Of a stretch of 38,693 bases of DNA, positions 2,964-35,412 are shown piece by piece. The notes under the pieces were generated by a model, which searched no databases, was not told where the DNA came from, and was given only the letters and a program-made list of their open reading frames with translations. Numbering within the stretch: the first letter of the stretch is position 1; each line of letters starts with the position of its first letter. The DNA is taken from positions 1 through 38,693 of IMG/VR virus record IMGVR_UViG_3300046373_000082; one strand, 5' to 3'. This DNA comes from a virus. The translations under genes were made by a program, and so were the position numbers.

Positions 2964-5204
2964 CTATCCAAGGTAATCATTAGCCGTAATATCGACTTGG
3001 CAGTCGAGCATGTTTAATGCTGCTGCAGCGTTGTGGCGGATCCTAAGTTGCCAATAGGTTCCAGGTGGGCCAGATACTTTGAACACAGACTTGATCCGGT
3101 CTGCATCAGGGTTTATGCCCTTCAGTTCTCCCTCCCCGTCAACGTATGTGCCTCCAGAATCAACCAAGTCAAAGATGATGGTCTTGGCGGCGCCATCAAC
3201 GGCCATGATCAGCGATGCGTTAATAGTCATCTTGTTGCATCCGTTTGGCATAACAAGCCGCGTCGGGTTTGTTAGCGAGAATGCACCAATGTTGTCGTCT
3301 ACAATCGTCGCGAAAGAAACAAGGTTAACCGCAAGGCCATTGCTGATCGATTGAGTTTGTTTGCGAACTTTTGTAGATCTTCCCTTGACATTGTAAGGGG
3401 CTAGACCTGCAGGAATCATTGGGCGGATCGGCGTATATGCCGCAAGATCGTGGTTAACATCATCGATCTGAATTTTGAAATATTCGTAAGCTTTTCTTCC
3501 GCTAGCCGCTTCAAACGCTGCGAAATAAGCCGGCAGGTTAGTAGAAGAAAGGTTTGCAATTATCGGACTGGACAGAGGCCCCGTGCAATCGCGCATCACG
3601 AACCTATTAGGTACTTGGCCCTGAATCGCAAGAACACACGAATCAGCAGATCCGTCTGGCCCAGCAAATAGGAAACATCCGTAAAATGCTACTTCAGTGC
3701 TGTTCCATGGAAAGCCAGTGTTTGGCGCTCCTAGCTGCGCAACAATTTGCATTCCTCCGTTCTCTCCGCCAAACCTTGTCTGCGAGGCGGAAATACTTCC
3801 ATAGTTATCGATCCATCTAACCCCCGCAACTCTATCGACACCCAACGTTCCGACATTCGGAATCATAAAGGTGTCTTTGATGTGCATGCGCGTCAGCGCG
3901 TTAGGGTCTGTGGCAGATGCACCTTTGTTGATAATCTGCGCAGTGGACGGCGTAATGTTAGATTTATCAGCCTGAATCCAAGATTGGCTGATCGTCATAT
4001 GATCGCAAGCGTTATTGATGGCTTGCTTGCACGATAGAATTCGAACCTTGTGAATATTGAACTCGGTTGAGAGGTGGCTGTAGGCATTGCCTCCACCATC
4101 AGAACCGGTTGCAAAAGTATTGAAACCGAAACCATTAGCCAGTTGGACATCGCAATTGGAAATCTCAACCATGGCCGAGTTGATATTGTCGTTATGGAAA
4201 CTGAAGGCATTCCTGCCGCCGGCCGTGTTGAAACCCTGGATTTGCCAGAGATAGGCCACCCCTGTGAAGATGTCTTTAGTGACCCCTCCATTTTGTGTAA
4301 TAAGGCATTCTTCGCCTTCAAGATTCACATATGCAGGAAGTGTTAATGCATCACTCAGGGAATAGTCACCAGCCCTTACGATTACTCTTGGCGTCGTCCC
4401 GCTATAACTGGACTGAAGACCGCCGATGGTGATCAGGCGACTTACCGTTTTATTTGGAATATCGGCAAGCATGTTATTGAACTGGATCTGATCGTTGGCG
4501 CCGCCAGCAAGATAGTCCCCAAGCTCTATTTCTCGGCGGGTCTTTTCGTAAATATCACGCTGAACGGTATTCGTCCCGGTTTGCTTAAAGCCATTGAGCT
4601 TTCCACCCTGGGGGCCGCTCATGTCTTGCACTACCTTTGGGACACCGTATGGGTCGATGTAGATTACATTCTGCGCCAGGTTGAACGGGCCTGTGCCTGC
4701 AGTGATAACCTCACCAACGTAGACTTCCATGGCGTTCTTGGTTACAGCGTCCTGCTGATCGACGGGATCTTCGAGATTGACTATCCGGCGGTTTTCCGCC
4801 TCGTAATGTTCGCTATCAACAGGGTGGCGCAGCGCACGACTTTCTTCTTCGGACAGTTGCTGCGTAATCATGGTCAGCTTATCAAGAGCACGCTCATGCG
4901 ATTCGGCTGGGAAATCGTCGTTCGGCTGATAGTCAGTCAACTGAGTGACTGGAACTACGCGAAGGATTACCAAAGATGAGAGATTTGGTGGCGCAACGTT
5001 GAATGTCAGCGAGCCGCCCGCTTGGTTTCCGGCTCCAGTCACTGTGTAATCGACGTCAAGCACCTTAGGGATCGCAACACCATTCGATGACGTCAAAGAT
5101 ACGACAATGTGCGTTTTGTCCAAAAAGTAATAGGGAATGGCGAATGTAGTGGTAGCCCCGTTGCCCACATACGATACGCTGCTTTGCTCACTGCTAACGG
5201 TCAT
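2964..5204 (-). CDS. Tailspike / tail fibre, 746 aa, probable beta-helix
   Basis: Residues ~8-115 (SYVGNGATTTFAIPYYFLDK...DVDYTV...GSLTF) match the N-terminal particle-binding domain of T7 gp17-type fibres. A short helical linker (~120-140) follows. The middle (~250-620) is rich in short beta repeats with Asn/Gly turns (FSFHNDNINSAMVEISNCDV) as in right-handed beta-helix tailspikes that bind or cleave surface polysaccharide. The last ~120 residues look like a separate beta domain. Catalytic residues cannot be assigned. AAGGAA lies 6 nt before the ATG. It is the last gene of the late operon. Base composition looks more AT-rich than its neighbours, consistent with exchange of receptor-binding genes. 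Confidence 0.8.
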   Translation of the reverse strand: MTVSSEQSSVSYVGNGATTTFAIPYYFLDKTHIVVSLTSSNGVAIPKVLDVDYTVTGAGNQAGGSLTFNVAPPNLSSLVILRVVPVTQLTDYQPNDDFPAESHERALDKLTMITQQLSEEESRALRHPVDSEHYEAENRRIVNLEDPVDQQDAVTKNAMEVYVGEVITAGTGPFNLAQNVIYIDPYGVPKVVQDMSGPQGGKLNGFKQTGTNTVQRDIYEKTRREIELGDYLAGGANDQIQFNNMLADIPNKTVSRLITIGGLQSSYSGTTPRVIVRAGDYSLSDALTLPAYVNLEGEECLITQNGGVTKDIFTGVAYLWQIQGFNTAGGRNAFSFHNDNINSAMVEISNCDVQLANGFGFNTFATGSDGGGNAYSHLSTEFNIHKVRILSCKQAINNACDHMTISQSWIQADKSNITPSTAQIINKGASATDPNALTRMHIKDTFMIPNVGTLGVDRVAGVRWIDNYGSISASQTRFGGENGGMQIVAQLGAPNTGFPWNSTEVAFYGCFLFAGPDGSADSCVLAIQGQVPNRFVMRDCTGPLSSPIIANLSSTNLPAYFAAFEAASGRKAYEYFKIQIDDVNHDLAAYTPIRPMIPAGLAPYNVKGRSTKVRKQTQSISNGLAVNLVSFATIVDDNIGAFSLTNPTRLVMPNGCNKMTINASLIMAVDGAAKTIIFDLVDSGGTYVDGEGELKGINPDADRIKSVFKVSGPPGTYWQLRIRHNAAAALNMLDCQVDITANDYLG

Positions 5205-26338: not shown

Positions 26339-26481
26339 CGTGCCGGTTACCTGATCCGGCGCCGTTGCCGGCGGAGTGTTGAGGCCTGATCCGCAGCGGC
26401 ACGCTGTTTCACTTCCTCTGAGTTGGCTGCAGATGGTTGGTGCCGATCTCCAACTTAGATAACCTTGATAGACCGCAACGA

Positions 26482-26509
26482 ATTATCCAGACTGCCTGTT
26501 AACTATCAC
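26482..26509 (-). promoter_or_regulatory. Candidate late promoter
   Basis: On the minus strand GATAAT (26482-26487, five of six matches to the -10 consensus) lies 16 bp downstream of GTGATA (26504-26509, four of six to -35). Initiation near 26475 would give a leader of about 150 nt that meets the terminator at 26311-26338, as at lambda PR'. The match is modest. Confidence 0.3.
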
Positions 26510-26681
26510 CGCCAATCGGCCTTGGCATTCATCTGCATCAGACTGCTGACTCAGTAGCGGGCGTGTTGGGCAATGGACTTAACCACGCGTTCTCATCCCT
26601 TCAAGTAAGCAGTCTGATGAAGACGATTCCCGCATGTGCGGGCTGGTGGCGGCTGTCTGCCACGTCGCCGAGGTTCCGATA

Positions 26682-31888: not shown

Positions 31889-31908
31889 TCGTCTCAAGCA
31901 ACACGAAC
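31887..31908. promoter_or_regulatory. Inverted repeat at the plus transcription start
   Basis: GTTCGT and ACGAAC are perfect 6-bp inverted arms with a 10-nt centre. They overlap the last base pairs of the -10 and the predicted start point of the plus promoter. It could be an operator or the first hairpin of the leader RNA. Confidence 0.4.
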
Positions 31909-32171
31909 ACAGCAACAAGGCAGCGATGAACCGGCCTCAACGGTTCAGAGGGTTGGCAACTGACCCGGGTGTGCAGCGTAAAGCACCGAAAGCAGTTTTC
32001 TGGCGGACAGGGTCGCGGCTGGAAGAACAATCTGAATTCTGTCAGTCGCTGCCTCCAGTAGAGAGCGACCGGATATCAGATGGCTTCCTGCTGTTTCAGG
32101 ATCGCCATCTGGCTTTACAAGTGCTGTCTAAACCCCAGACAGCACTCGAAAGCCACGAACGGAGCAAGACC
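31896..32171 (+). promoter_or_regulatory. Structured 5' leader of the plus early operon
   Basis: No convincing gene. Perfect stem-loops seen in the transcript: 31928-31946 (6-bp stem), 32045-32069 (6 bp), 32077-32111 (8-bp CAGATGGC/GCCATCTG enclosing a 4-bp CCTG/CAGG) and 32121-32145 (9-bp GTGCTGTCT/AGACAGCAC, 7-nt loop). None is followed by a T-run. Tandem hairpins between promoter and first gene, with an intrinsic terminator further on, recall put RNA antiterminators of HK022, but sequence identity with put is not claimed. Confidence 0.5.
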
Positions 32172-32378
32172 ATGGATATTTACGAAGTCTATAAGGGTGT
32201 GACTATTAAAAAATCTCTTAATGTTTTTTGCGCTTCATTTCCTGATGGAAGCTGGTTCGGCTGGTCAAGTCTTTATGACGTAAAACAAAAAATTGATAGC
32301 TGGGAATTAGGTTTTTTAACCCTCTCCGTCGTCCGCCGTACGCAACGGCCCGATATCTCTCTGGGGAAACTCGTTTAG
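32172..32378 (+). CDS. Hypothetical early protein, 68 aa, first gene of the plus operon
   Basis: ATG at 32172 preceded by GGAG about 8 nt upstream. An in-frame upstream ATG at 31926 would add 82 residues encoded by the hairpin-rich leader and is rejected. The product starts MDIYEVYKGVTIKKS and has a small beta-like body with a W-F-G-W cluster (GSWFGWSSLYDVKQKID). It is not Arg-rich, so it does not look like lambda N. Function unknown. Confidence 0.6.
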   Translation: MDIYEVYKGVTIKKSLNVFCASFPDGSWFGWSSLYDVKQKIDSWELGFLTLSVVRRTQRPDISLGKLV

Positions 32379-32381
32379 AGC

Positions 32382-32525
32382 GGGTATTGGAGTGTGATCT
32401 GAATATGCAGGCTGAGGCAAAACGACTCCAGGCTTGTACTGGGCCTGCGGCGACCGAAAGGCAGTTCGACGCAAGTTTACTTGTTGTGCCGGGATCAGCG
32501 CCGGCCAGATCACACCCTAATACCC
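32382..32525 (+). ncRNA. Candidate structured RNA element, ~144 nt
   Basis: Two 19-nt arms (32382-32400, 32507-32525) pair with two mismatches and close a multi-branched interior. Inside are GCAGGC/GCCTGC (32407-32412, 32443-32448) stacked on CCAG/CTGG (32428-32431, 32439-32442), a CAAG/CTTG hairpin (32472-32483) and GCCGG/CCGGC (32488-32492, 32501-32505). No gene fits this interval. It may be a cis-acting RNA control element or, with the terminator at 32623-32650, the body of a small RNA. A small mobile element with terminal inverted repeats is the alternative; no target duplication is seen. Confidence 0.5.
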
Positions 32526-32548
32526 AACTCAACGCGGAGGATTTAGCC

Positions 32549-32563
32549 ATGAAGCGAGATTAA
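32549..32563 (+). CDS. Minigene, 4 codons, with strong ribosome binding site
   Basis: GCGGAGG lies 8 nt before ATG AAG CGA GAT TAA. The binding site is stronger than that of many real genes here, yet the frame ends after four codons. A second SD-like GGGAGG at 32602-32607 precedes GTG AGT GAG TAA. Such minigenes can tie up tRNA or act in attenuation, as with lambda bar minigenes. Low confidence as a gene. Confidence 0.25.
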   Translation: MKRD

Positions 32564-32622: not shown

Positions 32623-32650
32623 AAAGCCCGGCATACGTGCCGGGCTTTTT
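32623..32650 (+). terminator. Strong intrinsic terminator within the plus early operon
   Basis: An 11-bp perfect stem (AAAGCCCGGCA/TGCCGGGCTTT) with a TACG loop and five T's at its end. It lies 245 bp after the first gene and 22 bp before the next. No promoter is visible between it and the gene at 32673, so the rest of the operon needs read-through. Confidence 0.85.
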
Positions 32651-35206: not shown

Positions 35207-35412
35207 TTCACCCTCGCTGGGAGGGCCTTAACTGGATGGCCCAGACGCGCAAGGCGGCAAGAGCGCGATAGCACATCACCGCCAGCAAAGGCAGATAGGC
35301 GCTGTCCTTCACCTGCAAGGCTTCGGCGGCGCAGGCCAACCCAGACCGTTTGTGACTTTGCACACCACCCCAACCGAACTCACACGCCGCCTGCATGGCG
35401 GGGAGGATCATC

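Follow-up and report, generated by a model that had tools for sequence, protein, structure and literature searches.

Among known RNAs, the element described here comes closest to tRNA itself and to stable RNAs C and D (species 1 and 2) from the tRNA cluster of phage T4, and it is a member of neither. The family to which it belongs resembles tRNA (RF00005) in having an acceptor-like stem followed by a hairpin at the T-arm position, a second hairpin at the D-arm position after a short linker, an elbow contact between the two loops, often a CCA after the stem, and a location in tRNA arrays. It differs from tRNA in that it has no anticodon arm, a 6-bp loop-loop pairing replaces the canonical D/T-loop contacts, the second loop has 9 nt and the stems of the long-stem members are about twice as long as those of tRNA. 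The element was not called a tRNA: ARAGORN made no call, its score fell below the RF00005 gathering threshold, and our covariance model R1, which was built from 24 relatives with none from the window (the whole stretch of 38,693 nucleotides analysed), matches no tRNAs. The T4 RNAs are likewise comparable as stable RNAs of a phage tRNA array, and rnaC has a T-arm-like 3' end; we know of no function assigned to them. As homologs, rnaC and rnaD were rejected, since there was no R1 match in L296 and the hairpin sequences of the family (H1 and H2, below) were not seen.

Structured RNAs of another make are found in phage leaders. HK022 put, likewise structured, lies near the start of an early operon in a lambdoid phage; set apart here by description of its architecture, it consists of two short hairpins, whereas the family is a closed multibranch RNA with a variable cargo that also occurs in tRNA arrays. 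The P4 CI RNA and the P1/P7 C4 antisense RNA are small RNAs in a phage operon leader, and their architecture differs from that of the family. At the element, cmscan with Rfam 15 gave no match to C4, riboswitches, ribozymes, Proteo-phage-1 or other listed families, neither by gathering threshold nor by E-value, and a direct BLAST against phages and plasmids gave no useful match. The family is absent from Rfam 15 and unannotated in phages. No description of this RNA was found in open-access full text, and an earlier one in the subscription literature is possible.

Fold and anatomy of the two window copies

Judged by comparison with its relatives, 32382-32525 is very probably, in its structural identity, a phage-encoded tRNA-like RNA. 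The MFE of this segment (element 1) is -67.5 kcal/mol, against -45.1 +/- 3.7 in dinucleotide shuffles (z -6.03, 0 of 200 as good), which bears out the fold proposed in an earlier sequence-only reading; the opposite strand likewise folds (z -5.83). Its predicted parts are the following.

32382-32525, plus strand: element 1, the whole putative tRNA-like RNA with a long closing stem (z -6.03; model R1 match 32394-32513)
32382-32401, plus strand: 5' strand of P1, the acceptor-like closing helix, pairing with 32506-32525 and covarying in relatives
32402-32404, plus strand: AAU linker between P1 and the H1 region, near-invariant among relatives
32406-32419, plus strand: H1, D-arm-like hairpin UGC-AGGCUGAG-GCA, 3 bp in element 1, placed by family comparison
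32420-32487, plus strand: variable domain (cargo), 68 nt, of a class in common with L077
32488-32505, plus strand: H2, T-arm-like hairpin GCCGG-GAUCAGCG-CCGGC, abutting P1
32506-32525, plus strand: 3' strand of P1, pairing with 32382-32401

The closing helix had been read as two 19-nt arms with two mismatches; the pairing stands, and the arms are in fact 20 nt long, with 19 of 20 positions paired, one A.C mismatch and one G.U pair. At least three more perfect stems had been placed inside it, among which H2 and the cargo stems of the MFE hold, while the 5' hairpin does not, the family implying H1 at 32406-32419 instead. As already noted in that reading, no gene is evident inside the interval. 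The same cargo was found in one other contig, L077, where P1 and one cargo pair show compensatory changes and the H1 stem position has CGC/GCG.

Because H1 and H2 hold the positions of the D arm and the T arm, we read the fold as a tRNA elbow with the anticodon arm replaced. The two loops would kiss through GCUGA of H1 (32411-32415) and UCAGC of H2 (32495-32499), a contact that is implied by family comparison and pseudoknotted and is thus not drawn by RNAfold. The pseudoknot-free MFE puts the H1 bases into another stem, so that H1 is absent from it, and this counts against the account proposed below; with P1, H1 and H2 enforced and the loops free, the fold has -60.6, to which the loop-loop duplex would add about -5.4, near the MFE. 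The element had not been recognised as tRNA-like in that reading, which has to be revised in the light of the tRNA-like architecture, with hairpins at the D- and T-arm positions, and of the copies in phage tRNA arrays.

A single element had also been implied. R1, whose E-values are rough, gave exactly two matches in the window, at 26428-26537 on the minus strand (63.3 bits, E 1e-14) and at 32394-32513 on the plus strand (44 bits, E 1.3e-9), the third-best match having an E-value of 0.28. The features of the second copy (element 2) are as follows.

26428-26537, minus strand: element 2, P1 TGCAGATG/CATCTGCA, R1 match with E 1e-14
Within element 2, minus strand: putative H1 GCCA-AGGCCGAT-TGGC and H2 GTTGG-AGATCGGCA-CCAAC, with loops predicted to kiss through GCCGAU/AUCGGC
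26424-26427, minus strand: G-CCA directly after the acceptor-like stem of element 2

P1, AAU, H1, H2 abutting P1 and complementary loops, the features that define the family, are present in both window copies. All four helices of element 2 depart from the consensus by compensatory changes and yet pair, and the CCA end, present in element 2, is absent from element 1 and the long-stem copies. The pseudoknot-free fold of element 2 reaches only z -0.9; with the scaffold enforced and the loops free, the energy is -28.5, plus about -8 for the loop duplex, the MFE being -31.1. Element 2 has a DUF6378/NinG gene group on one side and holin-like genes on the other, which is the same place as that of the copies of the lambdoid phages HK629 and HK633, between Q/PR' and holin. 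When R1 was run over a class of whole genomes, with 51 candidates scored per genome, the centre genome, which has a long-stem copy, was unmatched.

Covariation of the scaffold and its cargo

In many classes, the order of the scaffold is P1, AAU, H1, variable domain and H2, and throughout the family H2 abuts the 3' strand of P1. P1 is usually 7-10 bp long, and about 20 bp in element 1. The common H1 is GCGC-AGGCUGAU-GCGC and the common H2 is GCCGG-AGAUCAGCR-CCGGC, with complementary loops (GCUGAU/AUCAGC). Changes in both loops that still match were observed (GCCAA/UUGGC, GCGAU/AUCGC, GCCGAU/AUCGGC and GCGA/UCGC), and the contact is broken in a few variants (L018, L029 and L109), which speaks against the proposed account.

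P1 is strongly covarying, and the predicted H1 and kissing loops carry compensatory changes. In a 29-sequence scaffold alignment, both sides are altered in 16 of the 33 pairs, where shuffles give 4.3, and the signal is lost once the partner is slid; part of P1 was fixed there by the search pattern, so that less biased tests weigh more. When copies were retrieved by their 5' flank, without the inner arm sequence, the inner halves of P1 were quite different yet complementary, pairing at 0.99 with their own partner and at 0.55 with a swapped one, the arm pair of L143 being left out. A viral scan in which nothing but the two loops and one half of the H2 stem was specified gave 116 new loci. P1 is typically 7-10 bp in these and very varied (GTTGTGGTG/CACCACAAC, TGATAGTT/AACTATCA and CAAACCGG/CCGGTTTG, for example), its first 8 pairs are formed at 0.886 with their own partner against 0.620 with a swapped one, and all four Watson-Crick pairs occur at several positions. 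In one further sequence set, picked by full pairing, pairing is 100% by construction and only the variety of pair types is informative.

Finally, a scan for P1, AAT, H1 and H2 with no loop sequence set, over 6.69 Mb on both strands, found 81 distinct structures and 0 in shuffled sequence, the scanned sequence having been chosen for its relation to the family and hence being enriched for it. Loop-loop complementarity of at least 5 bp was found in 70 of the 81. Of the 12 structures whose first loop lacks GGCUGA, 4 reached at least 5 bp, against 1.8 on re-dealt loops, and for this reason the evidence for the loop contact consists of a few clear compensatory variants, not of a large number. The sequence-only reading had suggested an undescribed structured RNA and had pointed to covariation in homologs as the way to judge it; homologs and compensatory changes were both found and no Rfam family matches, which upholds the suggestion.

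The 140 distinct variable domains fall into 102 classes, with a median length of 53 nt. In one class of 17 sequences, the interior pairs 55-89, 57-87 and 58-86 are changed on both sides in 7-8 sequences; since the interior covaries within a class, the cargo is itself a selected RNA structure. T-arms are found inside some Pseudomonas interiors (L206, L178 and L190), and in L116 a recognisable tRNA with an odd anticodon is nested as cargo (3821-3970, Rfam tRNA 38.5 bits), whereas the nested tRNA was not called in L168, which is of the same class. Hairpins mimicking an anticodon arm (5 bp, 7-nt loop) are present in 5 of the 102 class representatives and in 2.6 in shuffles; they are not enriched, a point to be counted against the proposed account.

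Constant ends, swapped interiors and neighbours exchanged independently of the RNA class give these loci the look of a hot spot, and they could be decayed tRNA genes, or a mere conserved recombination boundary in a modular region, with no RNA function. We find this very improbable, given that P1, H1 and the loop contact show compensatory changes, as do all four helices of element 2, and that there is covariation within a cargo class; moreover, stems of wholly different sequence would not aid recombination.

Placement of the family in phage genomes

Comparison of the relatives establishes the predicted fold, the spread and the placement of the RNA family. Its members belong to temperate and lytic phages of Pseudomonas, Klebsiella, E. 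coli, Salmonella, Aeromonas, Burkholderia and others, and lie in or beside tRNA arrays (ZC08, KP591P1 and ASO78B), in late leaders (HK629 and HK633) and in the early-left operons of Pseudomonas prophages. One query matches 192 of 50,697 phage records, some over part only, and one coliphage version is present in 107 of 5,426 E. coli genomes.

The link with tRNA genes is seen in several phages: the copy lies between tRNA-Pro and tRNA-Leu in Pseudomonas phage ZC08, just before tRNA-Ser-Arg-Met in Klebsiella phage KP591P1 and about 340 nt before tRNA-Pro-Thr-Gly in Aeromonas phage ST4; in Escherichia phage ASO78B and in HC6 it precedes tRNA-Ser-Arg and tRNA-Ile, respectively, by about 100 nt. Among the 116 loci of the loop-fixed scan, 16 have a tRNA at most 300 nt away, against 2.4% expected at random places (p 2e-8, an optimistic value as related phages are not independent), and a tRNA within 1 kb is always on the same strand (21/21). 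CCA occurs at offsets 7-9 after H2, where tRNA has its CCA, in 31 of 90 loci, a minority, against about 9 expected. Further units that seem tRNA-like were observed upstream of the family member in HK633 (L420, about 1315-1510) and KP591P1 (L292, about 2280-2490); one has the closing stem AAGAGCA/TGCTCTT, and a T-arm is seen in KP591P1. These units suggest tandem arrays of tRNA-like RNAs in late leaders.

Such a location, together with the tRNA-like elbow, the T-arm-containing interiors and the nested tRNA of L116, could point to a decoy, the tRNA-like body of which would absorb host anticodon nucleases, tRNA-modifying toxins or other tRNA-targeting defences. There is a precedent: according to PMC13096335, tRNA-Tyr is cleaved by Septu, which phage T6 escapes through amplification of an anti-defence locus. 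We nevertheless hold a decoy to be distinctly unlikely, because the missing anticodon mimicry argues against its simplest form, and 102 cargo classes would be superfluous for it.

Arm-sequence scans of viral and genome contigs gave the long-stem set, which comprises 148 distinct elements and 53 interior classes; where a host is given, it is nearly always Pseudomonas. The arm pattern is present in 58 of 399 Pseudomonas-genus genomes, with 0 hits for a reversed control pattern; a wider order sample has it in 5 of 195 genomes, with two control hits in one genome. What the long-stem elements have in common is the closing stem and, 5' of it, a conserved flank with hairpin a, CCCGAT and hairpin b. 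At the 148 loci, the upstream side has CI-type repressors, nearly always on the same strand, and replication genes on the opposite one, and recombination genes follow downstream on the same strand; PAJU2, PAE2, phiPSA1 and the prophage-plasmid pSRV_K_1 are annotated examples of this setting. MFE does not settle the strand, 23 of the 53 class representatives being more stable on the plus strand; this strand is favoured by GNRA tetraloops (19 vs 4 among class representatives) and by operon direction. Long-stem copies often lie about 50-60 nt after a stop codon, the neighbouring genes are extremely diverse, and the RNA class or cargo does not track them. The distance from the stop codon prompted the idea of an integron attC-like cassette boundary, which we rejected since the interior RNA covariation speaks against it; moreover, the conserved bases of the family differ from what we take to be the attC core.

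The surroundings of element 1 contain the following predicted features.

32317-32380, plus strand: conserved 5' flank with hairpin a, a CCGAT motif and hairpin b
32335-32349, plus strand: hairpin a, GCCGT-ACGCA-ACGGC, with compensatory variants in relatives
32357-32380, plus strand: hairpin b, CTCT..AGAG
32549-32563, plus strand: mini-ORF of five codons, ATG AAG CGA GAT TAA, with the Shine-Dalgarno sequence GGAGG at 32536-32540
32623-32650, plus strand: strong intrinsic terminator downstream of element 1, conserved in close relatives

A 5' flank of the element 1 type is kept upstream of nearly all long-stem copies. A switch in which its motifs (CCCGAT and CTGCATC) would pair with the P1 arms was rejected, being barely above shuffled flanks. 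The nearest plus-strand frame upstream of element 1 is one of 68 aa that ends at 32378. This frame (32172-32378) runs through the conserved flank, which in relatives comes after a TAA stop; it may have lost its stop via a one-base change in the T run near 32312-32317. On the minus strand, element 1 is accompanied by a Cro-type HTH gene, an O-like replication gene and a DnaB helicase gene, and its plus-strand operon leads to a RecE-like exonuclease and a DNA methylase. By analogy with lambda, it would lie near the start of the early-left operon.

Two more conserved structured blocks are present in the element 1 leader, at 31893-32039 and 32043-32174 (both on the plus strand). The latter has three hairpins, one of them fully compensatory (GTGCTGTCT/AGACAGCAC in the window and ATGCCTCTC/GGGAGGCAT in L008), and relatives have an extra gene and RNA element between the matching blocks. 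Proteo-phage-1 RNA (RF03044), the only Rfam family in the window, lies at 35211-35287 (plus strand) directly after the stop of a small early gene, again in the order gene then RNA.

The strong terminator after element 1 was correctly seen in the sequence-only reading, and the Shine-Dalgarno sequence and mini-ORF just upstream of it are a possible attenuator or start-stop element. A strong Shine-Dalgarno sequence with a minimal frame was observed in L014, L115 and L149, and AUG-UAA at this place in several relatives. These features bear on a rival reading, in which the RNA would be a cis-acting leader element of the early or late operon, an antiterminator like HK022 put or an RNase III site, with the interior as filler. 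Copies do lie on the sense strand in early-left operons and late leaders, AUG-UAA mini-ORFs follow some of them, a 20-bp helix is a plausible RNase III substrate, and terminators 100-500 nt downstream are more often sense than antisense (26 vs 6), as in the window. However, a terminator is found within 400 nt downstream in only 19 of 134 loci, the tRNA-array copies of lytic phages have no evident leader to regulate, and the interior covaries within a class and is hence not filler, so that we regard a cis-acting leader as rather unlikely. A general association with terminators was weak and was set aside.

Proposed explanation and its meaning

We propose instead a tRNA-like RNA whose variable domain acts in trans, an account that we offer tentatively, with conviction a little nearer to doubt than to assent. 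Sequence comparison shows that P1 is a long acceptor-like helix continued by the T-arm-like H2, with the D-arm-like H1 after its 5' strand, that the H1 and H2 loops kiss as in the tRNA elbow, and that a large variable domain stands in place of the anticodon arm. Transcription would take place together with the operon or tRNA array; the tRNA-processing machinery, or RNase III in the case of the long-stem Pseudomonas form, would then cut out and protect the RNA, which would accumulate as a stable small RNA. The constant scaffold would present the variable domain, whose target in trans would be a host component, most likely a factor of defence or RNA metabolism. Such action would explain the free exchange of the domain on a scaffold that is retained. 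To the points counted above against this account must be added that the long-stem copies have no CCA end and stems about twice the length of those of tRNA. For a domain that is exchanged on an unchanging scaffold in accessory regions of phages, an arms-race RNA is, we infer, the best fit.

More broadly, and as a rather doubtful extension, Proteobacterial phages may share an RNA display system, in which a tRNA-elbow-like scaffold, processed and protected like a tRNA, would present interchangeable RNA domains to host factors. Such a system would be an RNA counterpart of protein anti-defence hot spots and would have escaped annotation in tRNA arrays, in early-left operons and in late leaders, those of the classical lambdoid coliphages among them.

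The family offers something concrete with which to compare the stable RNAs of the T4 tRNA cluster, and its natural compensatory pairs are ready-made mutants for testing. A constant scaffold, very probably tRNA-like, with a hypervariable insert makes it a structured RNA class that is unannotated in many phages, including relatives of lambda. Action in trans would add a new layer of phage-host interaction, and even a role in cis would make the family a new leader element of lambdoid phages that have been well studied.
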